64,000 bases of DNA from Leuctra nigra. Taxonomy: Eukaryota; Arthropoda; Insecta; Plecoptera; Leuctridae. Positions 1,172 through 64,000 of the stretch are shown here, piece by piece (position 1 is the first letter of the stretch; the number at the start of each line of letters is the position of its first letter). The stretch spans positions 29,872,964 through 29,936,963 of the forward strand of contig OW203761.1 in NCBI GenBank assembly GCA_934045905.1. The letters are read 5' to 3'. A program made the position numbers and the translations under genes. The notes beneath the pieces were generated by a model. That model ran no database searches. It was not told the origin of the DNA and worked only from the letters and a program-made list of their open reading frames with translations.

Positions 1172-3279
1172 AGTCGTCTCTTTGTCGACGGAAACGCACG
1201 ACGTTGCACGAAGACTCACCTTGCCTGGCACGGAAACGCACGACGTTGCACGAAGACTCACCTTGCCTGACACGGAAACGCACGACGTTGCACGAAGACT
1301 CACTCACCTTGCCTGGCACGGAAACGCACGACGTTGCACGAAGACTCACCTTGCCTGGCATGTCGTCTCTTTGTCGACGGAAACGCACGACGTTGCACGA
1401 AGACTCACCTTGCCTGGCACGGAAACGCACGAGGTTGCACAAAGACTCACCTCGCCTGGCACGGAAACGCACGACGTTGCACGAAGACTCACCTTGCCTG
1501 GCACGGAAACGCACGACGTTGCACGAAGACTCACCTTGCCTGGCACGGAAACGCACGACGTTGCACGAAGACTCACCTTGCCTGACAGGAAACGCACGAG
1601 GTTGCACGAAGACTCACCTTGCCTGGCACGGAAACGCACGAGGTTGCACGAAGACTCACCTTGCCTGGCACGGAAACGCACGAGGTTGCACGAAGACTCA
1701 CCTTGCCTGGCACGGAAACGCACGACGTTGCACGAAGACTCACCTTGCCTGGCACGGAAACGCACGACGTTGCACGAAGACTCACCTTGCCTGGCACGGA
1801 AACGCACGACGTTGCACGAAGACTCACCTTGCCTGGCATGTCGTCTCTTTGTCGACGGAAACGCACGACGTTGCACGAAGACTCACCTTACCTGGCACGG
1901 AAACGCACGAGGTTGCACGAAGACTCACATTGCCTGGCACGGAAACGCACGACGTTGCACGAAGACTCACCTTGCCTGGCACGGAAACGCACGACGTTGC
2001 ACGAAGACTCACCTTGCCTGGCATGTCGTCTCTTTGTCGACGGAAACGCACGACGTTGCACGAAGACTCACCTTGCCTGGCACGGAAACGCACGACGTTG
2101 CACGAAGACTCACCTCACCTGGCACGGAAACGCACGACGTTGCACGAAGACTCACCTCGCCTGGCACGGAAACGCACGACGTTGCACGAAGACTCACTCA
2201 CCTTGCCTGGCACGGAAACGCACGACGTTGCACGAAGACTCACCTTGCCTGGCACGGAAACGCACGACGTTGCACGAAGACTCACTCACCTTGCCTGGCA
2301 TGTCGTCTCTTTGTCGACGGAAACGCACGACGTTGCACGAAGACTCACCTCGCCTGGCACGGAAACGCACGAGGTTGCACGAAGACTCACCTCGCCTGGC
2401 ACGGAAACGCACGACGTTGCACGAAGACTCACTCACCTCGCCTGGCACGGAAACGCACGACGTTGCACGAAGACTCACTCACCTTGCCTGGCACGGAAAC
2501 GCACGACGTTGCACGAAGACTCACCTTGCCTGGCACGGAAACGCACGACGTTGCACGAAGACTCACTCACCTTGCCTGGCATGTCGTCTCTTTGTCGACG
2601 GAAACGCACGACGTTGCACGAAGACTCACCTTGCCTGGCACGGAAACGCACGACGTTGCACGAAGACTCACCTCACCTGGCACGGAAACGCACGACGTTG
2701 CACGAAGACTCACCTCGCCTGGCACGGAAACGCACGACGTTGCACGAAGACTCACTCACCTTGCCTGGCACGGAAACGCACGACGTTGCACGAAGACTCA
2801 CCTTGCCTGGCACGGAAACGCACGACGTTGCACGAAGACTCACCTTGCCTGGCACGGAAACGCACGACGTTGCACGAAGACTCACTCACCTTGCCTGGCA
2901 TGTCGTCTCTTTGTCGACGGAAACGCACGACGTTGCACGAAGACTCACCTTGCCTGGCACGGAAACGCACGACGTTGCACGAAGACTCACTCACCTTGCC
3001 TGGCACGGAAACGCACGACGTTGCACGAAGACTCACTCACCTTGCCTGGCACGGAAACGCACGACGTTGCACGAAGACTCACCTTGCCTGGCACGGAAAC
3101 GCACGACGTTGCACGAAGACTCCGTCACCTTGCCTGACACGGAAACGCACGACGTTGCACGAAGACTCACCTCGCCTGGCACGGAAACGCACGACGTTGC
3201 ACGAAGACTCACCTTGCCTGGCACGGAAACGCACGAGGTTGCACGAAGACAGACTCACCTTGCCTGGCATGTCGTCTGG
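1172..3279 (-). repeat. 42-bp minisatellite made of exon-5 donor copies (about 49 units)
   Basis: A tandem array reaching from inside exon 5 through the first 2.1 kb of intron 5. Read in gene sense each unit begins GTGAGTCTTCGTGCAACG and ends TTTCCGTGCCAGGCAAG, so every boundary is AAG|GTGAGT, a full consensus 5' splice site copied from exon 5. The base unit is 42 bp (14 codons, VSLRATSCVSVPGK, no stop in the exon frame). Variants include 46-bp units with an extra 4 bases (CTCA) and units holding a GTCGACAAAGAGACGACATG cassette whose AGACGACATG part matches exon 5 further upstream. The cassette occurs near 1172, 1359, 1838, 2022, 2299, 2580 and 2899. Long open frames on both strands here are a by-product of the repeat. 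Confidence 0.95.
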
Positions 3280-3457
3280 ATTCATCCTGGACTCGAACAA
3301 GATGGAGGCGTAGCCCATGTTGTCGCTACTGATCAGAGTGTTCGTGTTGTTCATGCTGGTGGGATGCACGGCGAACCAGCTGATCACACCGAGAGGTCGG
3401 TTGTCAGTTGACACGAAGCGTAGTTGCGTCATGGTCTTGTCTACGTTGTGGCGGTAT
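3259..3457 (-). CDS. CDase: CDase exon 5 (WFAVH motif; its end seeds the 2.1-kb array)
   Basis: Acceptor TTTTGTTGCAG|ATACCG, donor CCAGGCAAG|GTGAGTCTG, 199 nt. It encodes YRHNVDKTMTQLRFVSTDN through WFAVHPTSMNNTN and SSDNMGYAS to NPDDMPGK. His221 in WFAVH is the expected second zinc-site histidine. It ends in phase 0, where the family continues with a GPFVAAF-like block that is not found before position 1. The last bases (ATGCCAGGCAAG) and the GTGAGTCT donor are the seed of the 1172-3279 array. Confidence 0.93.
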
Positions 3458-6400: not shown

Positions 6401-9400
6401 ATACTTACAGAGAGGGGCAAGTAGATAGCCAGCCTTGGTATGATGCGATGTACATTGTCAGGGTAGATCAGAGCATGCTCAGCCACCATCTTGGAGATTA
6501 TTTCAAAAATTACTTTAAAAATGGCACCCCCCTCGATTGTAATGTTGTTGGCAAGAGACTTGAATGATACTTTGTACTAACCTTCAGTGCATACTTCACA
6601 GTAACAAACAACACAGAACAAATAAATGTACAGTAAAAACAAGATATAATATTGAAATAGTCTTCTGATTCAAGTTAAAAACGTGTTTCTAGTAAGTTTA
6701 AAATTTGACAGCTCAAAGTAATTTTTTCACTGCCTTCCGAATTAATTTTCCATTTCAGTGGCAGTGAATTATTAAATATCTCCAATATGGAGAAAAAGGA
6801 TCTTTCAAAATTAGTCAAGCATTAACCAGTAGTTACCCCTCTCTGTAATATATCTCTATGAATTAACAAACAAATTAATTAATTCGCCAGGGAAATCTAA
6901 AAAATATTATGTTTAACTTATATTTCATTGCTGAATTATGTACCTACACTTTCAATCCTTCCTCCCTCGAGGGATAATTATACTGAAACAATTACATTTT
7001 GTGTAAATAAACGCGCAGGTTTTATATTGAATGCAACAGTTGGAAAAATGAAAAGTCTCTCGGCAAAATGTCGAGAAGAGATATGAAAGAGATAGAATTC
7101 GCATGGAATGATAAAGGAGGATGAGTAGGGGGGGGGGGGAGGGGTGTCAGTTTGATTTGTTCCGATTGACGCGCTCGAGGCGATGTCAAACATCGGAGCT
7201 AACAAAGCGTTCATGCAGATTCAATAAAGCGCTCGGAAACTGAGATTGAACGGTGACGACAGGACGCAGGACAGGTGCCGGGGAGGTCGCGAGACACGTG
7301 GCATCGTCCACCCTCTGCGTGCAGGACGCAGGACAGGTGCCGGGGAGGTCACAAGACAAGTGGCATCGTCCACCCTCTGCGTGCAGGACGCAGGACAGGT
7401 GCCGGGGAGTTGTGATAATGTTGTGCAGGAACAACGTAATAAATAACGTAACGTTATTACGTATTTAACGTAATAAATTACGTTATTAGCGGTTTATAGG
7501 CCACCAGATAAAAGTAGAACTAGTTATGTCGTTGAGTTGGATGATTATTTCCAGGAAAATGAGGGCAATGATATCTTGTATGTTGGAGATGTAAATATGA
7601 ATATACTAAATGAGGATGATGGTAGTATTCAATCATATGAAAATGTTATGTCAACAAGGGGATTGCGTAAATGCATCATTGGGGTTACAAGGGAAGAATT
7701 TGTTTTGGATAAACTGTGTGTTAGTTGTATTGATCATGTGTATGCTAGGATAAAGAATCAACAAGTAAAGTCAGCTATTTTTACTACAAAAATTACTGAT
7801 CATTACATGGTGTTGGTTGATATTTATATGGAAGTAATTGTTAATGTAGACAAAAATCAAGATGCAATCAGAGAATTCATTTGCGAAGATAAATTGAAAC
7901 AATTGTTTAAGGAAGTAAATTGGTCAACATTGTTGGAGAGTAATGATTGTGTTGAACTCTATGCTAAAATAGTAGACACTTTTAAGCACTGTTATGATAA
8001 GGCTACTTACACAAAAAAATTGAATTGTAAAAATATGTTGCGTAAAAATTGGATGACTAAAGATTTGTTGATGGATGTAAACAAAAGGGATAAATTATTC
8101 AAAAAATGGAAAAATTGTGAGAATTCTATGAGATGCATAAACATGAATGAGTACAAAAAATTTAGAAATGAAGTTACAAAGAAAATAAAGTCTGCAAAGA
8201 TTGCTTATTATAAGAAAGAGATAGAGGGTGCAAAAATGAATATGAGAGATATGTGGAAAACAATTAATATTATTTCTGGGAAAAGTAAGAAGAGTTCTGT
8301 GGATGATGTTATCACTAGATATTTAGGTAAGGGACATACAGTTGATAAAATTGCCAATTTATTTGTTGATTCATTTATAAGTGATATTGAGAATATAAGC
8401 CACAAGTGTAATATTGTCTCTAGTAAAAGTGTATATTGTGATGAGGCAACACAGTCATTGTATATTCCAGCAATTCACAGATTTGAAATTGAAAAGATAA
8501 TAAGAGAAATGAATGTAAATAAGCAACCTGGGATTCATAGTATTCGAGCAATTGATATTAAATATTTGTGTACTGAAATTAGTCCTGTGTTAACTCATCT
8601 CATAAACTTATCATTAAAGACCGGTGTAGTGCCTGATGCAATGAAATTGTCAGTAGTTAGACCAATATTTAAGAAAGGAGATCATTTATTGTTAACAAAT
8701 TACAGGCCAATATCATTGTTGCCAACAGTTGAGAAAATAATGGAGAAAATTTTAGTCCAAAAGCTAACGGATTACCTTAAAAAGTTTGATATAATTGATA
8801 ATATGCAATTTGGTTTTCAAAAAGGAAAAAGTACAACTGACCTATTGATATTATTTTCCGAATATATTAATTTGAATCTTGACAAAAATTTCAATATAAT
8901 TGCGTTGTTCATTGATTTTTCGAAGGCATTTGATACCATTAATCACAAAAAGTTAATACAAATTTTGGAGAATATTGGGATAAGGGGACCATTATTGAAT
9001 TGGTTTAAGAATTATTTAAATAATCGAAAGATTGTAGTCAAGGTGTCAAATTCTTTTAGTTATTATAAAGACGTGTTACTGGGAGTCCCTCAAGGGTCTA
9101 ACCTTGGCCCTATTTTGTATATAATCTATGTAAATTATGTATTTAAATTACTACATGACACAAAGATATTTATGTTTGCAGATGATACCGTTCTTTTAGT
9201 AGCTAATAAAAGTTTAGAAATTGCAGAAATGGAACTTCAGATCAACTTCAATAAATTAATTTGTTGGACTCATGATAGTGGTCTGGTGATTAATTCTAGC
9301 AAAACAAAAATATTACATATATGTTCTCCTTTTAATACAGAAAAGAATTCTATGATTGACATTACTTTTCATTCCAATAGTTGTATACATAATAATACGT

Positions 9401-10048
9401 TGGAAGGTAGTTGTCTTTGTGTGACTAAAATTGAGACCGCTGAAACTCATGTTTATTTGGGTTTGACTATTGATAGACATTTTACTTGGCGCCCTCATAT
9501 TAATGTTCTTTGTAATAAATTGCGTATATGTGCATATAGATTATATAATTTAAACGATATTTTGTCATTGCGATTAATAAAAATAGTGTATTATGCGCTG
9601 GTTGAGTCAATTATGACGTATGGGGTATTGGCATGGGGTAATGCTTCTGATGTGCATTTACAGAGGATTTTTATGGTTCAGAAAAGAATTATTAATATTA
9701 TAACGCCAAATTATGTGAAGATTAAATTTAATTATAAAAATGATAGTTTTTTTGCATATTTGAATTTCCTTAACATTTTTGATATTTTCTTGTATAAATT
9801 AATTATACGGTATTACTTTGACGATGAATATAAAATATTATACGATCATGAAGTAAATACGAGAGCAAAGGAAAAGGGAACACTGAAGGTGCCAGGTTAC
9901 ACAAATAAACATGGCAAAAGGCGGCTTCAATATACAATCCCTACTATTTTTAATATCATTCCCCCTGTTTTGAAACAGTTAGATAAATATGTTATTATTA
10001 AAAAGGAAATCAAAGATTGGTTGATAAATAGAGATCATTAATTGAATA

Positions 10049-10087
<39 letters not shown>

Positions 10088-13000
10088 GATTCAGATGAGT
10101 ATTATTATTAATGTTATTTTTCCTATACAACTCAATTACGTTTGGTAAATACTTTGTAATATAATCCTGTATTTCTTATGAATTTGTATTGTTTATTGAA
10201 TTAATTAATTATGTCTGCAATATTGATATTGTATTTCTTTATGATTTATTATGGTTTATTGAATTATGTATTGCCACAGGCTAGCCAGTCATGGCTATGT
10301 GGCCTAGTCTGACTATATGTATTAACCTGTTTATAATAAATAAAATGTTAAAACAAAACAAACAAAACACGACGATGAGGGGGTGGTAGGGAATGGGGGT
10401 CATGTTCTCGCTGCAAGGGATGGGATGGGGGGGGGGGTACTTACTTCGCTCGCTCACTGGCAGGGTTGCTGTCATACGACGACGGACTTCGGTTGATGTT
10501 GGCGTCTAAGAGCTCGCCTTCTGACATGAAGATGCGAGCCGGCTCGAGGTTCTCGTGCGCCAACTTCATACTCTGCAACGCAACAAGCAAGTATTCGTGA
10601 TCAACCCCTCATAGCCAGCTACATTTTAGTACGGATATAATATTCAATGAGTTTAGTGCTAACATAAGTCTCTACCAGTGTATGCCGGGACAGAACCAAT
10701 AATCGAACCCGGAGTCGACACGGAAAATAATGTAGTTGCAAGGATCAAGCCACTGATCAAATTCTTGTATCAATATCAAAATGTTTGATTCATTTATCTA
10801 CCCATTTGTTTTTGTGCGAGTCATAATCTGCAAGTCAGCAATTATAGTTTACCTATTTGTGTTTGATGAACATACATGACGGATTGAGTGACTATTCTGT
10901 TTCAGTTTTACAAAACCAGAGATGAGGTTTTTCAAGTCTAGATTTAAAAGAATGATCCTTCATTAAGGCATCTCCGATAGATATCTTTGAAAATCATTTT
11001 TGAGCGAGCGAAGCGAGCGTCTCCTTTTGGCTCTTTTGGCACCGACCTCTGTTTTTTTTTTGTTTTTTTTTGTTTTTTTTTGTTGTTTTTTTGTCTGTCG
11101 TCTGCTCGTTTACAGATCGCACCGTTTATTCGATCGAACTGAAATTTTGCACACATGTCCAGACCAAATATGAGATTTTCTGACCCTAATTTTTTTTGAA
11201 ATCCCCTGATTGGTTCAAATTTAAAAAAAAAAAATCTTTAGATTGGTAGATCCCATCAATTTGAAATTTAGCATAGTCATTTCAACCAACATTGTACCCA
11301 ATCATAAAAAGTTTCAGCCAAATCCTCCCATTGGTTAAAATTTAAACTCATCTTTTCTGTGTTTTTTGAAATTTAAACTAGAACCGATTGAACGATCAAC
11401 TTATAACTTCGCATGATGGTTGGGACCAACATTATCTGCATTTTTGACAATTTTCATACTAATCTGTGTTTAAATCCAAACGTTATTGACATTTTACGGA
11501 CTATTTGCGTGTTGGCTGTCAAATTCACGGCGACTTCGACTCTTCAGTTCAAGGCAAGGTAGTTAGAGCAGAAACTTTCAAACGCATAATGAATCTGATA
11601 ATGACCGTTCAACAGTCGATCTGATATTGTGTAGACACACTTATATCATATGAGTGGCCCCAGGTATATTTTTTGAAGGAGATCCTGGGATTTTTGAAAA
11701 TTCACACGGAACCGTTCAATCATGAAGGTTCAATCTATCAACTTAAAGCTTTGCATGGTTATTTGAACCAATATTTTAGGAATTTTTTGAGATTTTTATA
11801 CAAGTCTGTGACGAAATTCTAGAATGATTGGCTTTTAATGACATTTTCGATAGACAGAATTTCGGTTCGAGGTGTTGCGCGTATTCGTGCTCGCTCATCA
11901 ACGCGAGCACGCGTTGATTCAAGTCTATAGTTTTATATACTATATATACTATATACTATAGTATACTATACAGCCACAGCCTAAACGGCTGAACCGATCG
12001 ACCTGAAATTTTTACCACATGTGCACTTTTGGCGTCTGAGGTGCTATTTTATAAAACCAACCGGAAGCCGCCATTTTGAAACCGGAAGTGACGTCATAAC
12101 TCAAAAACGTCTGGACCGATTAGAACGAAATTAGCGCCATTCGATTTAGATGGTCATCTATATGAAGTATCAATAAAAAAAATATTATTTTCTTATTTTC
12201 TAAACCGGAAGTGACGTCATAAATACGCAATATTTAACTTATTTCAACAAATTATACTTAAAATACGTACATAATTAACTTACATTGTAACATAGACAAT
12301 ACAATTTATATATTCAAGGTAGCAGTGTTCTCGGCCGCCATTCCTGAAACCGGAAGTGACGTCATATATCTAAAACGCCTGTACCGATTGCAACTGAACT
12401 AGCTCCTGCGTATTCATTCTGCTATTTATTTGAAAAATCAATTGTGAAAAATGAATAAATAAATTAATGGTACCGGAAATGGCGGCAGGAACCACTAAAT
12501 GAAACCGGAAGTGACGTCATATATTACAAACGGCATGACCGATTTTACGGAAATATAGGGATTAGGAATTCAGATGGTCGTTCATGAAGGTATCAACTAG
12601 ATAAAACTAGATTGTTTTCTTATTACCTATACCGGAATTCGGCCGCTATTTCAAAACCGGAAGTGACGTCATGTATCGAAAACGGCTGGATCGATTATAA
12701 CGAAACTTAAGCTATTCTTCTTGGATAATCATTTTCATCTTATACCAAACGCAACTTTTCATAGTAACCAAATCGGTTGAGGCGTATTTTTTTAAAGAAA
12801 TTAGTCCCTGCTCGGACATGTGCTACAAGCTGTATGAATAAACTAACAAAAGAAGTGATATCCCAGAAAAAACACTCCGTGTAAAAATACCAGCCAAGTC
12901 TCTTTAACTATAAAAAAAATAGAAGAAATCTAAAAATTCAGCACTGAAAAGGAGTGATATCAAAAAAGGAGCCAAGTCAACGAATTTTCCAAATTTTAAT

Positions 13001-16000
13001 CGTACCATTGAAATAAAAATATCAACCCCCGAGAAATACTTAAAAAAAGGACTTGGCGCATCGTTTTTTTAAAGACATTTTTCTATTCTTAAGCTTATGC
13101 CACTCACATACTACGTAGTTCAGAAATGCCTAGAAAAATTGGGACAAAACTTTCAAATTAAATATTGAACATTCTGTAAAATATTTTAAATTTAAATATA
13201 AGTACGCAAAGAAACATAGCATTGTCTTACAAGCAATAAATACAGAACAGTTGTGTTTGTGATTGGTAGGTACCTATAGTTTTGTGGGTACAACAACATA
13301 CCTACTACAGCATTATACTTTGAACCTTCTCGCCGTGTAATTAATTGCTATTAATTAACATTTTATACCAAAAAAATTCATAAATTACATAACGTATTAC
13401 TTTAGATAAAAATCTAGTCAGTAATTATTTGAGCAGCATGGCTCAGTGCACTAGTCACTTATACAAATCTCATTGACGGCCTTCTTGTAATGAGCGCTTT
13501 CGCTATTTCCCTCAGTCACGATATTGAGAAGTATGATTGATTAATATGACCCTAGAAATAGTGGCAATAACGAATAGACTAGGCCGCTTCCGTTTATTCG
13601 TTATTCGTTTATCCGTTTATTTCCTCTGAATATTGACAAAATACCAAAACTGCCAGTAGGTAAGAGTACTAGTTATATTAAAACGTAGTATGATTCGTCG
13701 ATAATGAATGTGATATACTCAGGAAAATATACTTGTAGAGTTCTTCCTATACTTTTAGGATAGAAAAGTGTCTTTAAAAAAACGATGCGCCAAGTCCTTT
13801 TTTTAAGTATTTCTCGGGGGTTGATATTTTTATTTCAATGGTACGATTAAAATTTGGAAAATTCGTTGACTTGGCTCCTTTTTTGATATCACTCCTTTTC
13901 AGTGCTGAATTTTTAGATTTATTCTATTTTTTTTATAGTTAAAGAGACTTGGCTGGTATTTTTACACGGAGTGTTTTTTCTGGGATATTGTCTACGACAT
14001 AAATTTTAAATTAAATGTGTTTGAAGTTGGAGATTTTAACATAAGGTCTGTTCGTTTTGCTTACTGCACTTTACTGCTCACTGCAAATCCGTTCGTTTTG
14101 CATCCAACTTGCTGTTCCGTCACTGCGATTGTGTTCGATTTGACACTGACAGTAGCTGCGCAGTGACTGCTCTTACAGCTGGGTAGGGAGGTGATGTAAA
14201 TGCAGTAAGTTTGCAGTAGGCGGCAAAATGGCCCATGTTTGAAATGTAAAATGTGTTTCTTATGGATGGATAGTGAAAAAACGCCTAAGGAGGAGGGAAA
14301 TGAGTATTTGTTTCAGAGTTTAGTTTAGTTATATGTTATGAAATGATACATATTTATATAAAAATGCTTTGGGATTAGACAAGAATTCTATAAATGCAGA
14401 ACATAACCTCACTTATTTTTACATTCTTCCCGCCAAATTCACAAACCTCCCAACCAATAGGAAAAGGCCAGCCTGCCATCCTGCTGCAAATGCGTTCGTT
14501 TTGTGTTGGTACAGCAAGCTACTGCAAAAGTTACCAGGGCCTACTGTAAGCTGCTGCTACTGCAACTGCAGTAAGCAAAACGAACAGACCTATAGGCTCA
14601 GATGGGAAACGCGGGAAAACTTACACATTTTGATATTTTTCTTGTCTAACTTGCTTTCATATAAACTAGACGTTATTCTGTCTCCTAATAATATCGAGTT
14701 TTCGTTATCTAATAGCATTGCTCCAGCCAGTTGAATCACACGACAAGACAAAAGCACACGATGATCGAGAGGGATCCTGGCCATCGGAGCGTAAGTAACA
14801 TTGCCACTTTACCCTAGAATAATTGACACATACCGTTCTAAGAAGGCCTCGAAAAATTAAAAAACAAAAACATAATGATGCATACGTAAATATGAAATCG
14901 TAGGTACTTAATAAGTATGATACTATTGCTCGTTAGGAATGTATAATAGCAGCTGCAAATCAATGCAAATCAAACATTATATTCCAAATGTTTTATTTCG
15001 GAATTTTCGTCTCTTCTTATGAATATTGGCAAGAAATAAACTTACGTAGGTATAGCTTGCCTTATGAAAAGAGTAAATTTTATTTTTATTTTAACATATG
15101 AAGTTATGGATTTTCTTTTATGACGTCAGTTAAAGTATGCATGTGAAAAAGTTTACAACATACAATAAGAAGACTGTCTGCAAGATCTAATCTTTGGTTT
15201 GAGTTGGCCAGCATAATATCAATGAAGGGTGGTACCTTGACAATGCCCTGCACTAGCATATGAATGAAGGTATCTTGACAATGCCCTGCACTAGCATATG
15301 AATAAAGGGTGGTACCTTGACAATGCCATGCACTAGCATATGAATGAAGGGTGGTACCTTGACAATGCCCTGCACTAGCATATGAATGAAGGGTGGTACC
15401 TTGACAATGCCCTGCACTAGCATATGAATGAAGGGTGGTACCTTGACAATGCCCTGCACTAGCATATGAATGAAGGGTGGTACCTGGACAATGCCCTGCA
15501 CTAGCATATGAATGAAGGGTGGTACCTTGACAATACCATGCACTAGCATATGAATGAAGGGTGGTACCTTGACAATGCCCTGCACTAGCATATGAATGAA
15601 GGTACCTTGACAATGCCCTGCACTAGCAACTGAATGAAGGGTGGTACCTTGACAATGCCCTGCACTAGCATATGAATGAAGGGTGGTACCTTGACAATGC
15701 CCTGCACTAGCATATGAATGAAGGGTGGTACCTTGACAATGCCCTGCACTAGCATATGAATGAAGGGTGGTACCTTGACAATGCCCTGCACTAGCATATG
15801 AATGAAGGGTGGTACCCTGACAATGCCATGCACTAGCATATGAATGAAGGGTGGTACCTTGACAATGCCCTGCACTAGCATATGAATGAAGGGTGGTACC
15901 CTGACAATGCCCTGCACTAGCAACTGAATGAAGGGTGGTACCTTGACAATGCCCTGCACTGCACCAGCATGTGAATGAAGGGTGGTACCCTGACAATGCC

Positions 16001-19000
16001 CTGCACTAGCAACTGAATGAAGGGTGGTACCTTGACAATGCCATGCACTAGCATATGAATGAAGGTATCTTGGCAATGCCCTGCACTAGCATATGAATGA
16101 AGGGTGGTACCTTGACAATGCCCTGCACTAGCATATGAATGAAGGGTGGTACCTTGACAATGCCCTGCACTAGCATATGAATGAAGGGTGGTACCTTGAC
16201 AATGCCCTGCACTAGCATATGAATGAAGGGTGGTACCTTGACAATGCCCTGCACTAGCATATGAATGAAGGGTGGTACCTTGACAATGCCCTGCACTAGC
16301 ATATGAATGAAGGGTGGTACCTTGACAATGCCCTGCACTAGCATGTGAATGAAGGGTGGTACCTTGACAATGCCCTGCACTAGCATATGAATGAAGGGTG
16401 GTACCTTGACAATGCCCTGCACTAGCATATGAATGAATGACGGTACCTTGACAATGCCCTGCACTAGCATATGAATGAAGGGTGGTACCTTGACAATGCC
16501 CTGCACTAGCATATGAATGAAGGGTGGTACCTTGACAATGCCCTGCACCAGCATATGAATGAAGGGTGGTACCTTGACAATGCCCTGCACTAGCATATGA
16601 ATGAAGGGTGGTACCTTGACAATGCCCTGCACTAGCATATGAATGAAGGTATCTTGACAATGCCCTGCACTAGCATATGAATGAAGGGTGGTACCTTAAC
16701 AATGCCCTGCACTAGCATATGAATGAAGGGTGGTACCTTGACAATGCCCTGCACTAGCATATGAATGAAGGGTGGTACCTTGACAATGCCCTGCACTAGC
16801 ATATGAATGAAGGGTGGTACCTTGACAATGCCCTGCACTAGCATATGAATGAAGGGTGGAACCTTGACAATGCCCTGCACTAGCATATGAATGAAGGGTG
16901 GTACCTTGACAATGCCATGCACTAGCATATAAATGAAGGGTGGTACCTTGACAATGCCCTGCACTAGCATATGAATGAAGGGTGGTACCTTGACAATGCC
17001 CTGCACTAGCATATGAATGAAGGGTGGTACCTTGACAATGCCCTGCACTAGCATATGAAAGAAGGGTGGTACCTTGACAATGCCTTGCACTAGCATATGA
17101 ATGAAGGTACCTTGACAATGCCCTGCACTAGCATATGAATGAAGGGTGGTACCTTGACAATGCCCTGCACTAGCATATGAATGAAGGGTGGTACCTTGAC
17201 AATGCCCTGCACTAGCATATGAATGAAGGTACCTTGACAATGCCCTGCACTAGCATATTAATGAATGACGGTACCTTGACAATGCCCTGCACTAGCATAT
17301 GAATGAAGGGTGGTACCTTGACAATGCCCTGCACTAGCATATGAATGAAGGGTGGTACCTTGACAATACCCTGCACTAGCATATGAATGAAGGGTGGTAC
17401 CTTGACAATGCCCTGCACTAGCATATGAATAAAGGTACCTTGACAATGCCCTGCACTAGCATATGAATGAAGGGTGGTACCTTGACAATGCCCTGCACTA
17501 GCATATGAATGAAGGGTGGTACCTTGACAATGCCCTGCACCAGCATATGAATGAAGGGTGGTACCTTGACAATGCCCTGCACTAGCATATGAATGAAGGG
17601 TGGTACCTTGACAATGCCCTGCACTAGCATATGAATGAAGGGTGGTACCTTGACAATGCCCTGCACTAGCATATGAATGAAGGGTGGTACCTTGACAATG
17701 CCCTGCACTAGCATATGAATGAAGGTACCTTGACAATGCCCTGCACTAGCATATGAATGAAGGGTGGTACCTTGACAATGCCCTGCACTAGCATATGAAT
17801 GAAGGGTAGTACCTTGACAATGCCCTGCACTAGCATATTAATGAATGACGGTACCTTGACAATGCCCTGCACTAGCATATGAATGAAGGGTGGTACCTTG
17901 ACAATACCCTGCACTAGCATATTAATGAATGACGGTACCTTGACAATGCCCTGCACTAGCATATGAATGAAGGGTGGTACCTTGACAATGCCCTGCACTA
18001 GCATATGAATGAAGGGTGGTACCTTGACAATGCCCTGCACTAGCATATGAATGAAGGGTGGTACCTTGACAATGCCCTGCACCAGCATATGAATGAAGGG
18101 TGGTACCTTGACAATGCCCTGCACTAGCATATGAATGAAGGGTGGTACCTGGACAATGCCCTGCACTAGCATATGAATGAAGGGTGGTACCTTGACAATA
18201 CCATGCACTAGCATATGAATGAAGGGTGGTACCTTGACAATGCCCTGCACTAGCATATGAATGAAGGTACCTTGACAATGCCCTGCACTAGCAACTGAAT
18301 GAAGGGTGGTACCTTGACAATGCCCTGCACTAGCATATGAATGAAGGGTGGTACCCTGACAATGCCCTGCACTAGCATATGAATGAAGGGTGGTACCTTG
18401 ACAATGCCCTGCACTAGCATATGAATGAAGGTACCTTGACAATGCCCTGCACTAGCATATGAATGAAGGGTGGTACCTTGACAATGCCCTGCACTAGCAT
18501 ATGAATGAAGGGTGGTACCTTGACAATGCCCTGCACTAGCATATGAATGAAGGGTGGTACCTTGACAATGCCCTGCACCAGCATATGAATGAAGGGTGGT
18601 ACCTTGACAATGCCCTGCACTAGCATATGAATGAAGGGTGGTACCTTGACAATGCCCTGCACTAGCATATAAATGAAGGGTGGTACCTTGACAATGCCCT
18701 GCACTAGCATATGAATGAAGGTATCTTGACAATGCCCTGCACTAGCATATGAATGAAGGGTGGTACCTTGACAATGCCCTGCACTAGCATATGAATGAAG
18801 GTACCTTGACAATGCCCTGCACTAGCATATGAATGAAGGGTGGTACCTTGACAATGCCCTGCACCAGCATATGAATGAAGGGTGGTACCTTGACAATGCC
18901 CTGCACTAGCATATGAATGAAGGGTGGTACCTTGACAATGCCCTGCACTAGCATATGAATGAAGGGTGGTACCTTGACAATGCCCTGCACTAGCATATAA

Positions 19001-22000
19001 ATGAAGGGTGGTACCTTGACAATGCCCTGCACTAGCATATGAATGAAGGGTGGTACCTTGACAATGCCCTGCACCAGCATATGAATGAAGGGTGGTTCCT
19101 TGACAATGCCCTGCACTAGCATATGAATGAAGGGTGGTACCTTGACAATGCCCTGCACTAGCATATGAATGAAGGGTGGAACCTTGACTATGCCCTGCAC
19201 TAGCATATGAATGAAGGGTGGTACCTTGACAATGCCCTGCACTAGCATATGAATGAAGGGTGGTACCTTGACAATGCCCTGCACTAGCATATGAATGAAG
19301 GGTGGTACCTTGACAATGCCCTGCACTAGCATATGAATGAAGGGTGGTACCTTGACAATGCCATGCACTAGCATATGAATGAAGGGTGGTACCTTGACAA
19401 TGCCCTGCACTAGCATATGAATGAAGGGTGGTACCTTGACAATGCCCTGCACTAGCATATGAATGAAGGGTGGTACCTTGACAATGCCCTGCACTAGCAT
19501 ATGAATGAAGGGTGGTACCTTGACTATGCCCTGCACTAGCATATGAATGAAGGGTGGTACCTTGACAATGCCCTGCACTAGCATATGAATGAAGGTACCT
19601 TGACAATGCCCTGCACTAGCATATGAATGAAGGGTGGTACCTTGACAATGCCCTGCACTAGCATATGAATGAAGGGTGGTACCTTGACAATGCCCTGCAC
19701 TAGCATATGAATGAAGGTACCTTGACAATGCCCTGCACTAGCATATTAATAAATGACGGTACCTTGACAATGCCCTGCACTAGCATATGAATGAAGGGTG
19801 GTACCTTGACAATGCCCTGCACTAGCATATGAATGAAGAATGGTACCTTGACAATGCCCTGCACTAGCATATGAATGAAGGGTGGTACCTTGACAATGCC
19901 CTGCACTAGCATATGAATGAAGGTACCTTGACAATGCCCTGCACTAGCATATGAATGAAGGGTGGTACCTTGACAATGCCCTGCACTAGCATATGAATGA
20001 AGGGTGGTACCTTGACAATGCCCTGCACCAGCATATGAATAAAGGGTGGTACCTTGACAATGCCCTGCACTAGCATATGAATGAAGGGTGGTACCTTGAC
20101 AATGCCCTGCACTAGCATATGAATGAAGGTATCTTGACAATGCCCTGCACTAGCATATGAATGAAGGGTGGTACCTTGACAATGCCCTGCACTAGCATAT
20201 GAATGAAGGTACCTTGACAATGCCCTGCACTAGCATATGAATGAAGGGTGGTACCTTGACAATGCCCTGCACTAGCATATGAATGAAGGGTAGTACCTTG
20301 ACAATGCCCTGCACTAGCATATTAATGAATGATGGTACCTTGACAATGCCCTGCACTAGCATTTGAATGAAGGGTGGTACCTTGACAATGCCCTGCACTA
20401 GCATATTAATGAATGACGGTACCTTGACAATGCCCTGCACTAGCATATGAATGAAGGGTGGTACCTTGACAATGCCCTGCACTAGCATATGAATGAAGGG
20501 TGGTACCTTGACAATGCCCTGCACTAGCATATGAATGAAGGGTGGTACCTTGACAATGCCCTGCACCAGCATATGAATGAAGGGTGGTACCTTGACAATG
20601 CCCTGCACTAGCATATGAATGAAGGGTGGTACCTTGACAATGCCCTGCACTAGCATATGAATGAAGGGTGGTACCTTGACAATGCCCTGCACTAGCATAT
20701 GAATGAAGGTATCTTGACAATGCCCTGCACTAGCATATGAATGAAGGGTGGTTACTTGACAATGCCCTGCACTAGCATATGAATGAAGGTACCTTGACAA
20801 TGCCCTGCACTAGCATATGAATGAAGGGTGGTACCTTGACAATGCCCTGCACTAGCATATAAATGAAGGGTGGTACCTTGACAATGCCCTGCACCAGCAT
20901 ATGAATGAAGGGTGGTACCTTGACAATGCCCTGCACTAGCATATGAATGAAGGGTGGTACCTTGACAATGCCCTGCACTAGCATATGAATGAAGGGTGGT
21001 ACCTTGACAATGCCCTGCACTAGCATATGAATGAAGGGTGGTACCTTGACAATGCCCTGCACTAGCATATGAATGAAGGGTGGTACCTTGACAATGCCCT
21101 GCACTAGCATATGAATGAAGGGTGGTACCTTGACATTGCCCTGCACTAGCATATGAATGAAGGGTGGTACCTTGACAATGCCCTGCACTAGCATATGAAT
21201 GAAGGTACCTTGACAATGCCCTGCAATAGCATATGAATGAAGGGTGGTACCTTGACAATGCCCTGCACTAGCATATGAATGAAGGGTGGTACCTTGACAA
21301 TGCCCTGCACTAGCATATGAATGAAGGGTGGTACCTTGACAATGCCCTGCACTAGCATATGAATGAAGGGTGGTACCTTGACAATGCCCTGCACTAGCAT
21401 ATGAATGAAGGGTGGTACCTTGACAATGCACTGCACCAGCATATGAATGAAGGGTGGTACCTTGACAATGCCCTGCACTAGCATATGAATGAAGGGTGGT
21501 ACCTTGACAATGCCCTGCACTAGCATATGAATGAAGGGTGGTACCTTGACAATGCCCTGCACTAGCATATGAATGAAGGGTGGTACCTTGACAATGCCCT
21601 GCACTAGCATATGAATGAAGGGTGGTACCTTGACAATGCCCTGCACTAGCATATGAATGAAGGGTGGTACCTTGACAATGCCCTGCACTAGCATATGAAT
21701 GAAGGTACCTTGACAATGCACTGCACTAGCATATGAATGAAGGGTGGTACCTTGACAATGCCATGCACTAGCATATGAATGAAGGGTGGTACCTTGACAA
21801 TGCCCTGCACTAGCATATGAATGAAGGGTGGTACCTTGACAATGCCCTGCACTAGCATATGAATGAAGGTACCTTGACAATGCCCTGCACTAGCATATGA
21901 ATGAAGGGTGGTACCTTGACAATGCCCTGCACTAGCATATGAATGAAGGGTGGTACCTTGACAATGCCCTGCACTAGCATATGAATGAAGGGTGGTACCT

Positions 22001-25000
22001 TGACAATGCCCTGCACTAGCATATGAATGAAGGGTGGTACCTTGACAATGCCCTGCACTAGCATATGAATGAAGGGTGGTACCTTGACAATGCCCTGCAC
22101 TAGCATATGAATGAAGGGTGGTACCTTGACAATGCCCTGCACCAGCATGTGAATGAAGGGTGGTACCTTGACAATGCCCTGCACTAGCATATGAATGAAG
22201 GGTGGTACCTTGACAATGCCCTGCACTAGCATATGAATGAAGGGTGGTACCTTGACAATGCCCTGCACTGCACTAGCATATGAATGAAGGGTGGTACCTT
22301 GACAATGCCCTGCACTAGCATATGAATGAAGGGTGGTACCTTGACAATGCCCTGCACTAGCATATGAATGAAGGGTGGTACCTTGACAATGCCCTGCACT
22401 AGCATATGAATGAAGGTACCTTGACAATGCCATGCACTAGCATATGAATGAAGGGTGGTACCTTGACAATGCCCTGCACTGCACTAGCATATGAATGAAG
22501 GGTGGTACCTTGACAATGCCCTGCACTAGCATATGAATGAAGGGTGGTACCTTGACAATGCCCTGCACTAGCATATGAATGAAGGGTGGTACCTTGACAA
22601 TGCCCTGCACTAGCATATGAATGAAGGTATCTTGACAATGCCCTGCACTAGCATATGAATGAAGGGTGGTACCTTGACAATGCACTGCACTAGCATATGA
22701 ATGAAGGGTGGTACCTTGACCTTGCCCTGCACTAGCATATGAATGAAGGGTGGTACCTTGACAATGCCCTGCACTAGCATATGAATGAAGGGTGGTACCT
22801 TGACAATGCCCTGCACCAGCATATGAATGAAGGGTGGTACCTTGACAATGCCCTGCACTAGCATATGAATGAAGGGTGGTACCTTGACAATGCCCTACAC
22901 TAGCATATGAATGAAGGGTGGTACCTTGACAATGCCCTGCACTAGCATATGAATGAAGGGTGGTACCTTGACAATGCCCTGCACTAGCATATGAATGAAG
23001 GGTGGTACCTTGACAATGCCCTGCACCAGCATGTGAATGAAGGGTGGTACCTTGACAATGCCCTTCACCAGCATATGAATGAAGGGTGGTACCTTGACAA
23101 TGCCCTGCACTAGCATATGAATGAAGGGTGGTACCTTGACAATGCCCTGCACTGCACTAGCATATGAATGAAGGTACCTTGACAATGCCCTGCACTAGCA
23201 TATGAATGAAGGGTGGTACCTTGACAATGCCCTGCACTAGCATATGAATGAAGGGTGGTACCTTGACAATGCCCTGCACTAGCATATGAATGAAGGGTGG
23301 TACCTTGACAATACCCTGCACTAGCATATGAATGAAGGGTGGTACCTTGACAATGCCATGCACTAGCATATGAATGAAGGTACCTTGACAATGCCCTGCA
23401 CTAGCATATGAATGAAGGGTGGTACCTTGACAATGCCCTGCACTAGCATATGAATGAAGGGTGGTACCTTGACAATGCCCTGCACTAGCATATGAATGAA
23501 GGGTGGTACCTTGACAATGCCCTGCACTAGCATATGAATGAAGGGTGGTACCTTGACAATGCCCTGCACTAGCATATGAATGAATGACGGTACCTTGACA
23601 ATGCCCTGCACTAGCATATGAATGAAGGTATCTTGACAATGCCCTGCACTAGCATATGAATGAAGGGTGGTACCTTGACAATGCCCTGCACTAGCATATG
23701 AATGAAGGGTGGTACCTTGACAATGCCCTGTACTAGCATATGAATGAAGGGTGGTACCTTGACAATGCCCTGCACTAGCATATGAATGAAGGGTGGTACC
23801 TGGACAATGCCCTGCACTAGCATATGAATGTAGGGTGGTACCTTGACAATGCCCTGCACTAGCATATGAATGAAGGGTGGTACCTTGACAATGCCCTGCA
23901 CTAGCATATGAATGAAGGGTGGTACCTTGACAATGCCCTGCACTAGCATATGAATGAAGGGTGGTACCTTGACAATGCCCTGCACTAGCATATGAATGAA
24001 GGGTGGTACCTTGACAATGCCATGCACTAGCATATGAATGAAGGGTGGTACCTTGACAATGCCCTGCACTAGCATATGAATGAAGGGTGGTACCTTGACA
24101 ATGCCCTGCACTAGCATATGAATGAAGGGTGGTACCTTGACAATGCCCTGCACTAGCATATGAATGAAGGGTGGTACCTTGACAATGCCCTGCACTAGCA
24201 TATGAATGAAGGGTGGTACCTTGACAATGCCCTGCACTAGCATATGAATGAAGGGTGGTACCTTGACAATGCCCTGCACTAGCATATGAATGAAGGGTGG
24301 TACCTTGACAATGCCCTGCACTAGCATATGAATGAAGGTACCTTGACAATGCACTGCACTAGCATATGAATGAAGGGTGGTACCTTGACAATGCCATGCA
24401 CTAGCATATGAATGAAGGGTGGTACCTTGACAATGCCCTGCACTAGCATATGAATGAAGGGTGGTACCTTGACAATGCCCTGCACTAGCATATGAATGAA
24501 GGTACCTTGACAATGCCCTGCACTAGCATATGAATGAAGGGTGGTACCTTGACAATGCCCTGCACTAGCATATGAATGAAGGGTGGTACCTTGACAATGC
24601 CCTGCACTAGCATATGAATGAAGGGTGGTACCTTGACAATGCCCTGCACTAGCATATGAATGAAGGGTGGTACCTTGACAATGCCCTGCACTAGCATATG
24701 AATGAAGGGTGGTACCTTGACAATGCCCTGCACTAGCATATGAATGAAGGGTGGTACCTTGACAATGCCCTGCACCAGCATGTGAATGAAGGGTGGTACC
24801 TTGACAATGCCCTGCACTAGCATATGAATGAAGGGTGGTACCTTGACAATGCCCTGCACTAGCATATGAATGAAGGGTGTTACCTTGACAATGCCCTGCA
24901 CTGCACTAGCATATGAATGAAGGGTGGTACCTTGACAATGCCCTGCACTAGCATATGAATGAAGGGTGGTACCTTGACAATGCCCTGCACTAGCATATGA

Positions 25001-28000
25001 ATGAAGGGTGGTACCTTGACAATGCCCTGCACTAGCATATGAATGAAGGTACCTTGACAATGCCATGCACTAGCATATGAATGAAGGGTGGTACCTTGAC
25101 AATGCCCTGCACTGCACTAGCATATGAATGAAGGGTGGTACCTTGACAATGCCCTGCACTAGCATATGAATGAAGGGTGGTACCTTGACAATGCCCTGCA
25201 CTAGCATATGAATGAAGGGTGGTACCTTGACAATGCCCTGCACTAGCATATGAATGAAGGTATCTTGACAATGCCCTGCACTAGCATATGAATGAAGGGT
25301 GGTACCTTGACAATGCACTGCACTAGCATATGAATGAAGGGTGGTACCTTGACCTTGCCCTGCACTAGCATATGAATGAAGGGTGGTACCTTGACAATGC
25401 CCTGCACTAGCATATGAATGAAGGGTGGTACCTTGACAATGCCCTGCACCAGCATATGAATGAAGGGTGGTACCTTGACAATGCCCTGCACTAGCATATG
25501 AATGAAGGGTGGTACCTTGACAATGCCCTACACTAGCATATGAATGAAGGGTGGTACCTTGACAATGCCCTGCACTAGCATATGAATGAAGGGTGGTACC
25601 TTGACAATGCCCTGCACTAGCATATGAATGAAGGGTGGTACCTTGACAATGCCCTGCACCAGCATGTGAATGAAGGGTGGTACCTTGACAATGCCCTGCA
25701 CCAGCATATGAATGAAGGGTGGTACCTTGACAATGCCCTGCACTAGCATATGAATGAAGGGTGGTACCTTGACAATGCCCTGCACTGCACTAGCATATGA
25801 ATGAAGGTACCTTGACAATGCCCTGCACTAGCATATGAATGAAGGGTGGTACCTTGACAATGCCCTGCACTAGCATATGAATGAAGGGTGGTACCTTGAC
25901 AATGCCCTGCACTAGCATATGAATGAAGGGTGGTACCTTGACAATACCCTGCACTAGCATATGAATGAAGGGTGGTACCTTGACAATGCCATGCACTAGC
26001 ATATGAATGAAGGTACCTTGACAATGCCCTGCACTAGCATATGAATGAAGGGTGGTACCTTGACAATGCCCTGCACTAGCATATGAATGAAGGGTGGTAC
26101 CTTGACAATGCCCTGCACTAGCATATGAATGAAGGGTGGTACCTTGACAATGCCCTGCACTAGCATATGAATGAAGGGTGGTACCTTGACAATGCCCTGC
26201 ACTAGCATATGAATGAATGACGGTACCTTGACAATGCCCTGCACTAGCATATGAATGAAGGTATCTTGACAATGCCCTGCACTAGCATATGAATGAAGGG
26301 TGGTACCTTGACAATGCCCTGCACTAGCATATGAATGAAGGGTGGTACCTTGACAATGCCCTGTACTAGCATATGAATGAAGGGTGGTACCTTGACAATG
26401 CCCTGCACTAGCATATGAATGAAGGGTGGTACCTGGACAATGCCCTGCACTAGCATATGAATGTAGGGTGGTACCTTGACAATGCCCTGCACTAGCATAT
26501 GAATGAAGGGTGGTACCTTGACAATGCCCTGCACTAGCATATGAATGAAGGGTGGTACCTTGACAATGCCCTGCACTAGCATATGAATGAAGGTACCTTG
26601 ACAATGCCCTGCACTAGCATATGAATGAAGGGTGGTACCTTGACAATGCCATGCACTAGCATATGAATGAAGGGTGGTACCTTGACAATGCCCTGCACTA
26701 GCATATGAATGAAGGGTGGTACCTTGACAATGCCCTGCACTAGCATATGAATGAAGGGTGGTACCTTGACAATGCCCTGCACTAGCATATGAATGAAGGG
26801 TGGTACCTTGACAATGCCCTGCACTAGCATATGAATGAAGGGTGGTACCTTGACAATGCCCTGCACCAGCGCCTCGAACGTCTGCTGCACGAAGCCTAGC
26901 GTGGACAGGTCGAAGAGCAAGTGTTGCATGAATCCACCTGGCGCTGAGTGCGTGTGAGTGGCCGTGATGATCACGTTCTGTACGGTGTACTTGTCACTGT
27001 ACGTCTTCGACAGCCGTGCCAACACCTGCAAAATATCGCAAGGAACAAGTTTTAATTGCCTACCATAACAAACATATCAATGTAAATACTGGCTCTTATA
27101 TCCTTATTGTATGTCATCCTGGCAAAATTGTCGAGTGGTCATGTCAACGGTTTGGAAGTTGTGCAGTATAATGTAAATAAAGGTATTGGTTTTTACATAA
27201 TATTTTACATCCGGAAGTTCTGAACAGATTTGTTTCGAAATTCTCAAAAATACCTAAAATGTTGTTCCCAATGACCATGCAAAGTTTTAAGTTGAACCGC
27301 TCTTATGACCTTAGTGTGAAACATTAGTGAAATTTCAGATCGATTGGTTGGACGGTGTAACCCAAGGTGTCTATAGAAGTTGGTAGCAACCAACTTCTAT
27401 AGACACCTTGGGTGTAACCTGAGCATTTCGTACAAAATCATGAACAAACATCAACAAAAAAGAGAGAATGTGTCAAGAGTCCCGTACAATCGAATTAGCA
27501 ACAACAGCTTCCCCCTACTCTCGAGTCACGAGCGCTCAAATGAATTCCATGTGTTCATTGAACACTCCAATAACTTCAATCATCGATGCCCGTGCCCTCT
27601 GACACGTGACATTCTCTGCATTGCCTGCCGCTCGAATAATCAGTCTGATAAATAGAGACAGATAAATGCCAGTTTACGAATTATCACACTTAAACAAGGA
27701 GAACGTTTAACACAGACAAAATTTAAACGAAATCGGAGACAAAGAGTCAAAATGAGTCGCTCGCTTTGCTTACTCAAATGTACAAGAACCATTTTATTTA
27801 ATTGAATTAATCGTTAAAATTTTATAGTGTTGGATACAAATGATATTCATTAAATTACACTCAGAAGATTGCTTGTGTACTGTTAGCAAGACAAAGCTAC
27901 GTGATTGTGAACACAAACAGTGTCAGTGCAAAAGGTCAGAGTTTCATTAAAATCTCATTGTATTAAATAAGTAGGTACCTATTCTAAATTTTTAATGATT

Positions 28001-40338: not shown

Positions 40339-42242
40339 GAGCGAGCGTAGCGAGCGTCACCACGGTACTCTTATGGCACTTTCTCTGTGTGTTTTTTTTT
40401 AAAACCGCTCAAGCAATCGATCTGAAATTTTGTACACATACTAACGTACTCTATGCGGTCCCTGGGATCGTTTTTGAACGGGCTCCCGTGATTGGTTCAA
40501 ATTTTAAAAAAATTATCTTTCGATTGGTTGCATCAATCAATTTGAAATTTGGCAAAAACATTGCAACCAACATTGTACCCAATCATAAAAAGTTTCAGCT
40601 AAATTCTCCTATTGGCTCAAATTTAAAACCATTTTTCATGTGATTTTTGACATTTAAACTAGAACCGATTGAACGATCAACTTAAAACTTCGCGTGGTCA
40701 TTGGTACCAACATTTTAGGTATTTTAGCCAATTTTCAGTATAATCTGTCGTCATTTTCAAAAGTTTTGTAATTTTAAGGTCATTTTATTCCATAATCTTG
40801 AAAAATGTATACTAAATTGTCATCCCTGCCTTCTTTAAGCTTCTGTTCCAAGGCAAGGCCTGTAGAGCAGCCATGCTATCCACAATGTACAGTAAAATGA
40901 AAGCATTTTTGAGCTAGCGCATAAAATCGGATGCAGTACGAAGGCCAAATCCTCTAATTGGTTTAAGTTTAAATAATGTCTTCTGATTGGTCGACAATAA
41001 AAATGTTCACATTAAGTTCAAATTTTGCATGGTGATCAAGACCAACTTAATATTAAATTTTACATATTGTAAGCCCAATCAGTCAAGTATTAATTGTAAT
41101 TTTACGAGTTTAGTATGGGATGTCACAAGAGATTTCGAAGGTATGTAGGTAAGACTTCACGACAGGCGCGTAGGAACTTCATTTTGAGTGGGGGGGTCAA
41201 AATTATGGGGATCAATGAATGTGAGGAAAAGTAGTCGTCGTTACAATGGGGTCTGGGAAGCCCGCAACCCAAATTGCCCCGCAGGGCCTTTTTTGAATTT
41301 TTGATACAAAAGAATCGAATTTGAAGCTATTTTTGTATATTTTTCAAAGAAATTTACAATGTGTGAAATGCAATATTCTGTGGAAACTTTAAGAAATGTA
41401 ATATAATTTGTAGCTATTTGTTTTTAATACCCATTATTGGCCCCGCAGGGAATTTTTTGGGTTATTGATACAAAATAATCGAGCTTAAAGCTATTTTAGC
41501 ATACTTTTCAAAGAAATTTAAAATGTATGAAATGAAATATTCTATGGAAACTTTATACAAATGTAATATAACTGTAACTATTTGTTTTTTAGAATCCCCA
41601 TTGGCCCCGCAGGGAATTTTTTGAGTTTTTGATGCAAAAGAATCGAATTTGAAGCTATTTTGGCAACGTTTTCAAAGAAATTTAAAATTTGTGATATGCA
41701 ATATTCTTGGGAAACTTTGACAAAATGCATTATAATCTGTAAATTTTGTTATTCGATAAAATCCCTAAAGATAATCGATTATGAATAGATTTTGGAATTG
41801 CTTTGAAAACGGTGCTTATTCGGTATCATAGTTTAACGTGTAATTCATGAGGATGATCATGTTGGACAAATGAGTTATTGTCTAATTGGATAATACCTCT
41901 GTTCAATTAGCTTTGCAAAACTTGGGAAAATTTTGAGAATTCAACCTCATAATGGAGCAAATTTGTGCATTTTTGGATCTCTTTATCAAAATTTGTGTGT
42001 ATCTGGGGGTTATATCTGGGGGTGTCAAGATGAAAAGTGGGGGGGTCATTGACCCCCACTCCCCCTTCCTTCCTACGCGCCTGCTTCACGACACAATGGA
42101 TCTGTTATTCATCCAGTGTATTATGGAGATTGAAAAATTGCAGAGTAAATCGTCTTCTGCCCTGTCGTGCATCGTTTCTATGGGGATGTTGCATGTTCTG
42201 TGCTCGCTCATCAACGCGTTACACTGAGCGTTTTCCTAGTAT
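40339..42242 (+). repeat. Dispersed repeat family, copy B, split by a hAT-like insertion
   Basis: Starts GAGCGAGCGTAGCGAGCG and parallels copy A, including CATTGTACCCAATCATAAAA and AGAACCGATTGAACGATCAA. It is interrupted at 41163-42083, then resumes and ends near GCTCATCAACGCGTTACACT and TTTTCCTAGTATG. Confidence 0.65.
41163..42083. mobile_element. Non-autonomous hAT-like DNA transposon
   Basis: 14-bp terminal inverted repeats CAGGCGCGTAGGAA/TTCCTACGCGCCTG are flanked by the 8-bp direct repeat CTTCACGA (41155-41162 and 42084-42091). An 8-bp target duplication with CAGG-type ends is the hAT pattern. There is no transposase ORF. The interior has three copies of a ~160-bp unit beginning GGCCCCGCAGGG (41272, 41440 and 41602 approximately). 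Confidence 0.85.

Positions 42243-50669: not shown

Positions 50670-64000
<13,331 letters not shown>

Follow-up and report, generated by a model that had tools for sequence, protein, structure and literature searches.

Two introns of a single gene of Leuctra nigra (Plecoptera) open with minisatellites in which the repeated unit is the end of the preceding exon joined to that exon's own 5' splice site (donor). The gene lies on the minus strand of the 64,000-nucleotide stretch analyzed here (contig OW203761.1, positions 29,872,964 to 29,936,963; hereafter the window, numbered from its first letter) and is assigned by homology to neutral ceramidase (CDase). Array 1 stands at the head of intron 3, and array 2 at the head of intron 5. 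In the account that we regard as probable, the arrays were founded by duplication across the donor at direct repeats, grew by unequal exchange, and are spliced out passively through the outermost donor. A first-pass annotation of the window had described array 1 and offered several readings of it. With corrections, that observation holds and its interpretation finds support in part, but the second donor array, in intron 5, had been missed.

The CDase gene and its predicted exons

Five CDase coding exons were located on the minus strand within the window (Table 1) by tblastn with flea, termite, damselfly, and mayfly ceramidases, and the splice sites were assigned by eye from the sequence. For exon 1, the flea ceramidase gave no match in the tblastn of the window. 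When exons 3, 4, and 5 are joined through the outermost donors, the product matches human neutral ceramidase (4wgk) without a gap over 169 residues (E value of 2.2e-50). Comparisons with homologues were made with the best 120 of 837 related proteins: the alignment is gap-free in 99 of the 120, and in none of them does a gap lie at most 30 residues from the exon 3/4 junction. Judged by the alignment of exons 3-4-5 and by these 120 listed homologues, a gap-free protein needs the outermost donors, in line with an outcome that had been among those suggested at first reading. A ceramidase tree of 43 rows (the window sequence plus 42 of the 120 listed homologues, hand-picked to span orders) grouped the window sequence with a damselfly at 93/77, separate from the nine Lepidoptera rows; protein similarity as such points to an insect. 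Exon 3 had no match among plasmids, a collection that is not expected to contain animal genes.

Array 1 repeats the end of exon 3 and its donor

The first-pass annotation had reported an array of about 280 copies and 11.6 kb starting within CDase exon 3, and Tandem Repeats Finder (TRF) returned just such an array: 15216-26870, period 42, 280.0 copies, 94% matches, and 2% indels. Array 1 opens with the end of exon 3 as its first copy; intron 3 is 16.3 kb long, and the array takes up about 71% of it. Beyond it, the intron runs 4.6 kb more to the ordinary acceptor of exon 4, which is the acceptor that gives the gap-free protein; the boundary read from the sequence puts the start of exon 4 at 10572, where it had been placed before. 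Unit decomposition recovered the division that had been proposed for the unit, which on the minus strand consists of 22 exon-like bases followed by 20 intron bases. The exon-like part corresponds to the last 22 bases of exon 3 (26870-26849). The two match at 21 of 22 positions; no other site on that strand does better than 15 of 22.

Wrap-around alignment divided the array into 281 pieces, two of which (1 and 20 nt) were excluded from the unit statistics, these being confined to units of more than 30 nt. The remaining 279 units, of 51 distinct types, comprise 229 of 42 nt, 23 of 38 nt, 10 of 41 nt, 10 of 39 nt, 5 of 47 nt, and 2 of 43 nt. Junctions were counted as 280, a number that includes exon 3's own junction and the 20-nt piece and excludes the 1-nt piece, which is the last base of exon 3. 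GT is present at 268 junctions, AGGT at 264, AAGGT at 260, and AAGGTACC at 255. Thus, hundreds of near-equal donors do follow exon 3, but the earlier statement that AAG|GTACC recurs at every junction was too strong. Ten of the 12 junctions that have lost GT read AAGATACC, and these ten sit in units of lengths other than 42 nt. Across the array as a whole there are 266 AGGT and 262 AAGGT motifs, two of each lying off the unit junctions. A search with the array 1 unit gave no match in prokaryotic genome contigs, another collection not expected to contain animal genes.

Array 2 repeats the end of exon 5 and its donor

The second array is made of repeats of the end of exon 5 and the donor of that exon; its units were taken from a direct unit list rather than from wrap-around alignment. 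Of its 46 donors, exon 5's own included, 45 read GTGAGT and one reads GTGACG. The units are mostly 42, 46, and 59 bp long. Those of 59 bp, six in number, contain 18-19 exon bases and retain the last 18 bases of exon 5 complete (18/18), and the unit of 42 bp resembles a truncated version of them. Within the array (2948-1219), the 59-bp units are spaced 4-11 units apart. Ten array 2 units carry GTGAGTGAGT, in which the donor is doubled at 4 nt.

A common origin of the two arrays was considered and rejected, the likeness of their units being at the level of shuffled sequences: the local alignment score is 7.0, the mean of the shuffled units is 6.6, and 41% of 500 shuffles reach the observed score. 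Since the units are unrelated, the arrays likely arose separately. Array 2 is the strongest hint that donor-spanning arrays in CDase are no single accident.

The arrays close the reading frame

Translation continued from exon 3 into array 1 reaches a stop after 90 amino acids, past six further AAGGTACC donors. Six successive units do stay in frame, as had been described, but the frameshift comes from a unit of 38 nt and not of 37. The phases of the 255 AAGGTACC donors are mixed (90, 91, and 74). In array 2, the first unit is 46 nt and shifts the frame immediately, and read-through ends at a stop after 59 residues. No repeat-bearing protein was found at an E value of 0.001 among 7,997 candidates scored from a set of 5.8 billion, the comparison being confined to proteins of similar length. 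A coding array was rejected on these grounds, namely the missing repeat-bearing protein and the mixed frames.

Probable founding and later growth by duplication

Both arrays begin within an exon, span its donor, and have short direct repeats at their flanks (Table 1). Among random breakpoints of similar spacing in the window, repeats of at least 5 bp occurred in 0.9-1.0% and repeats of at least 7 bp in 0.07-0.13%. In array 2, the six 59-bp units have the length and the sequence expected from duplicating one AGACGAC to the next, and the last unit continues into the intron-side AGACGAC. Because short direct repeats bound each array, we infer that each probably began when the segment between the repeats, donor included, was duplicated in tandem.

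Growth has left its own mark in array 1, where a higher-order duplication is offset by 63 units, or about 2.63 kb, with 66 of the 71 units identical. Such internal duplication of unit blocks is a property of minisatellites, as are head-to-tail tandem units of about 10-100 bp, which make up both arrays. Growth by unequal exchange is likely.

Donor variation, U1 pairing, and RNA structure

Conservation was tested on the 229 42-nt units among the 279 of array 1. Substitutions number 22/2061 at the nine donor positions and 104/7557 in the rest of the unit (P = 0.33), a comparison that shows no clear selection on the array 1 donors. Duplex energies calculated with the U1 5' end are -5.6 kcal/mol for the array 1 donor, -5.3 for the exon 4 donor, -10.4 for the array 2 donor, and -14.5 for a perfect site; calculated U1 pairing would therefore be weak for the array 1 donor and strong for that of array 2. 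The poly(A) signals AATAAA and ATTAAA are absent from the 11.6 kb of array 1 and occur 11 times in the other 4.6 kb of intron 3. Their absence follows from a unit sequence that does not contain them and is no evidence of function.

RNA structure that would mask the inner donors was also considered. The first model had the donors largely paired. Six-unit arrays nevertheless showed no gain in folding over arrays built from shuffled units (z = 0.0 and 0.5, with 200 shuffles each), and few donors were more hidden than that of exon 3 itself. The idea was rejected on both counts.

Predicted passive removal and its alternatives

A duplication running from exon to intron would keep the original exon and donor on the exon side, with the extra sequence becoming intron downstream. 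Since only intron is added, such an event would be nearly invisible to selection. Exon definition predicts the use of the donor nearest to the exon's acceptor. The acceptor of exon 3 would thus be paired with its nearest donor, and the outermost donor is predicted to win. The array would then leave with the intron and the protein would be unchanged, whereas splicing from a donor farther away would bring in a stop before long. In view of the lack of clear donor selection, of special RNA structure, and of a long open frame, a passive, spliced-out minisatellite is most likely.

Several points weigh against this account. Use of the outermost donor is itself a prediction from sequence. The three core donor positions are less variable than the remainder (1/687 versus 125/8931, P = 0.0015), a difference that could be a hint of selection, in a test for which the positions were picked after seeing the data and the copies are not independent; moreover, the ten AAGATACC junctions, which lack GT, belong to units of other lengths. 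For array 1, the founder requires further changes: TTCATTGATATTATGCTGG stands at the far flank where most units have TTCATTCATATGCTAG, a 3-base difference plus two substitutions, and the exon-like G is kept in just 18 of the 279 units. The founding model therefore fits array 1 more loosely than it fits the repeats of array 2. Finally, it looks like more than misfortune for one gene to have two donor arrays; the probability that both would lie at donors by chance is about 2e-4 if the 64 kb contain 40 donors and a margin of 24 bases is allowed, or about 6e-5 with 20 donors, figures that rest on assumed donor numbers and a post hoc test and serve as a hint only.

The alternatives to passive removal differ in what they ask of the array. 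If several near donors were in use, each would add a 14-residue step (VPPFIHMLVQGIVK) to the protein; the frame is indeed kept through the first six units, with six further AAGGTACC donors ahead of the first stop. We think this quite unlikely, given that no repeat-bearing protein appeared among the candidates of similar length, that the listed homologues are all free of gaps around the exon 3/4 junction, and that array 2 is out of frame from its first unit. Noisy exon length, an outcome raised in the first-pass annotation, likewise lacks clear positive evidence, the frame closing after 90 amino acids. It also seems improbable that misassembly produced the length of array 1 or a large part of the array. 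Near-identical overlapping duplications such as the 2.63-kb one are where assemblers err, but the 279 units are of 51 distinct types, a second and different array has unit variants of its own, and an error of this kind could alter copy number while hardly creating a unit made of exon and donor.

A functional role is unlikely, if a little less so. The arrays might be landing platforms or decoys that recruit U1 and delay or control the excision of the long intron, or that suppress early polyadenylation. The calculated strength of the array 2 donors, the GTGAGT kept in 45 of 46 of them, the low variability of the core donor positions in the 42-nt units of array 1, and the dearth of poly(A) signals there relative to the remaining intron would all suit such a role. 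Against it stand the weak calculated pairing of the array 1 donors, the nonsignificant nine-position test, the loss of GT at 12 of 280 junctions, and the fact that the missing poly(A) signals follow from the unit sequence. For the U1 crowding proposed at first reading, then, we see no clear positive evidence, with P = 0.33 across the nine positions and a duplex of -5.6 kcal/mol where a perfect site would give -14.5. We hold to be doubtful a broader version, in which 5' splice sites of this lineage seed minisatellites through duplications between flanking repeats that escape selection, and introns grow outward from their first base by stacked donors into a U1-rich platform that shapes splicing of the long intron.

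Comparison with intron gain and other known systems

Introns can be gained, by a supported route, when AGGT segments are duplicated in tandem (PMC3443670), and the first-pass annotation had invoked this route here; the arrays would be young introns, or would hold nested introns between successive AG|GT copies. Most array 1 units do read GT...AG from one donor to the next. Yet the duplicated segment is half intronic and spans the exon-intron boundary (22 plus 20 bases in array 1; 18-19 exon bases in the 59-bp units of array 2), intron 3 extends 4.6 kb past the array to an ordinary acceptor, and the CAAG acceptor of the copies, by eye, has no pyrimidine run. An exonic segment is the defining feature of this route, and the arrays are therefore not classed as intron gain, which we consider highly improbable as their explanation.

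In fission yeast, SPOG_01682/SOCG_00815 has introns across 24-nt tandem repeats that are not fully identical (PMC3629103; reviewed in PMC3443670). The proto-splice motif is given as AGGT in PeerJ 2016 and as AGGC in the original paper (PMC3629103). As in the CDase arrays, a short segment with a proto-splice site stands in tandem and the spliced sequence runs across the copies. The yeast source is exonic, however, and the new intron spans few copies, whereas in CDase a 5' splice site lies within the source segment, and there are about 280 copies in one array and 46 in the other. The potato RdRp case involves a tandem duplication across an intron-exon boundary (PMC4974935), and there, too, duplication across a boundary carries splice signals along. 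It was a single duplication, on the acceptor side, that made a new intron; the CDase duplications are on the donor side, massively repeated, and form the start of an intron. The CDase case is thus different from known intron-gain cases in its donor boundary, in its scale, and in its occurrence twice in one gene.

Intronic minisatellites, or variable number tandem repeats, share with the CDase arrays the 42-bp tandem units, the higher-order duplication, and the unit variants; in contrast to such repeats in general, the CDase unit is an exon end plus donor, and one gene has two unrelated arrays. The antifreeze glycoprotein gene came from a trypsinogen intron-exon boundary, with a short element amplified in tandem. 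It resembles the CDase arrays in having a short exon-intron-boundary element in tandem, but that array became coding, while the CDase array is out of frame and predicted to be intronic. The third intron of the Drosophila P element has pseudo-5' splice sites that trap U1. U1-trapping pseudo-5' splice sites are also described for HMGA1a and estrogen receptor (PMC6002489). As with these sites, extra donors near the real one in CDase could hold U1. The pseudo-5' splice sites, however, are single or few and have a reported function as decoys, as against hundreds of candidate decoys downstream of the exon's donor in CDase. No donor-spanning minisatellite was recognizable by title or abstract in the literature searched, where coverage was partial, the wording narrow, and 5' splice site wording probably unmatched.

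A natural test of donor choice

To our knowledge, the choice among near-identical donors has been studied mostly in engineered genes that offer two sites or a handful. A native CDase gene with 268 GT-bearing junctions after exon 3 and 46 after exon 5 offers an unusual natural test of donor choice, and the two arrays contrast by duplex energy, one being weak (array 1) and one strong (array 2). The arrays also suggest a simple route by which introns lengthen at their 5' ends, since donor-spanning duplications would cost little.

Table 1. Positions in the window of the CDase exons, the two donor arrays, and their flanking repeats
Feature	Coordinates	Strand	Basis
CDase exon 1	33967-33848	-	tblastn, splice sites by eye
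CDase exon 2	28521-28378	-	tblastn, splice sites by eye
CDase exon 3, predicted, 59 codons	26849..27025	-	tblastn, splice sites by eye
CDase exon 4, predicted splice partner of exon 3	10445..10572	-	tblastn, boundaries by eye
CDase exon 5, end = AGACGACATGCCAGGCAAG	3259..3457	-	tblastn, boundaries by eye
Array 1, ~280 copies, 42-bp unit, donor AAG|GTACC	15216..26848	-	TRF, unit decomposition
Higher-order duplication in array 1, units 1-71 = units 64-134	21250..26848	-	unit comparison
Exon-side direct repeat GCTGG, putative founder breakpoint of array 1	26866..26870	-	sequence
Intron-side direct repeat GCTGG, just past the far end of array 1	15208..15212	-	sequence
Array 2, 46 donors, start of intron 5	1173..3258	-	TRF rows within 1188-3269; full unit listing
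Exon-side direct repeat AGACGAC, putative founder breakpoint of array 2	3271..3277	-	sequence
Intron-side direct repeat AGACGAC, far end of array 2	1173..1179	-	sequence

Other features in the window

The CDase introns hold further repeats. In intron 2, a perfect 25-bp inverted repeat with a 4-nt loop lies at 27360-27413. Intron 3 has, at 14044-14591, an element of about 550 bp with 28-nt terminal inverted repeats that are 96% complementary, which looks like a miniature inverted-repeat transposable element or a small DNA transposon, and, at 12858-13988, a 235-nt inverted repeat that is 98% complementary with 661 nt between its arms. Intron 4 carries, antisense to the gene, a long interspersed nuclear element-type element (7477-10041, plus strand) with an 854-residue open frame and an RVT_1 domain (E value of 2.8e-35). 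Elsewhere, TRF found a 164-bp tandem repeat of 2.9 copies at 41276-41750. A second gene occupies 51673-63998 on the minus strand and encodes F5/8C, HYR, ephrin-receptor-like, and EGF domains; TRF reported only two short arrays in it, of 3.0 and 2.5 copies, with periods of 10 and 13.

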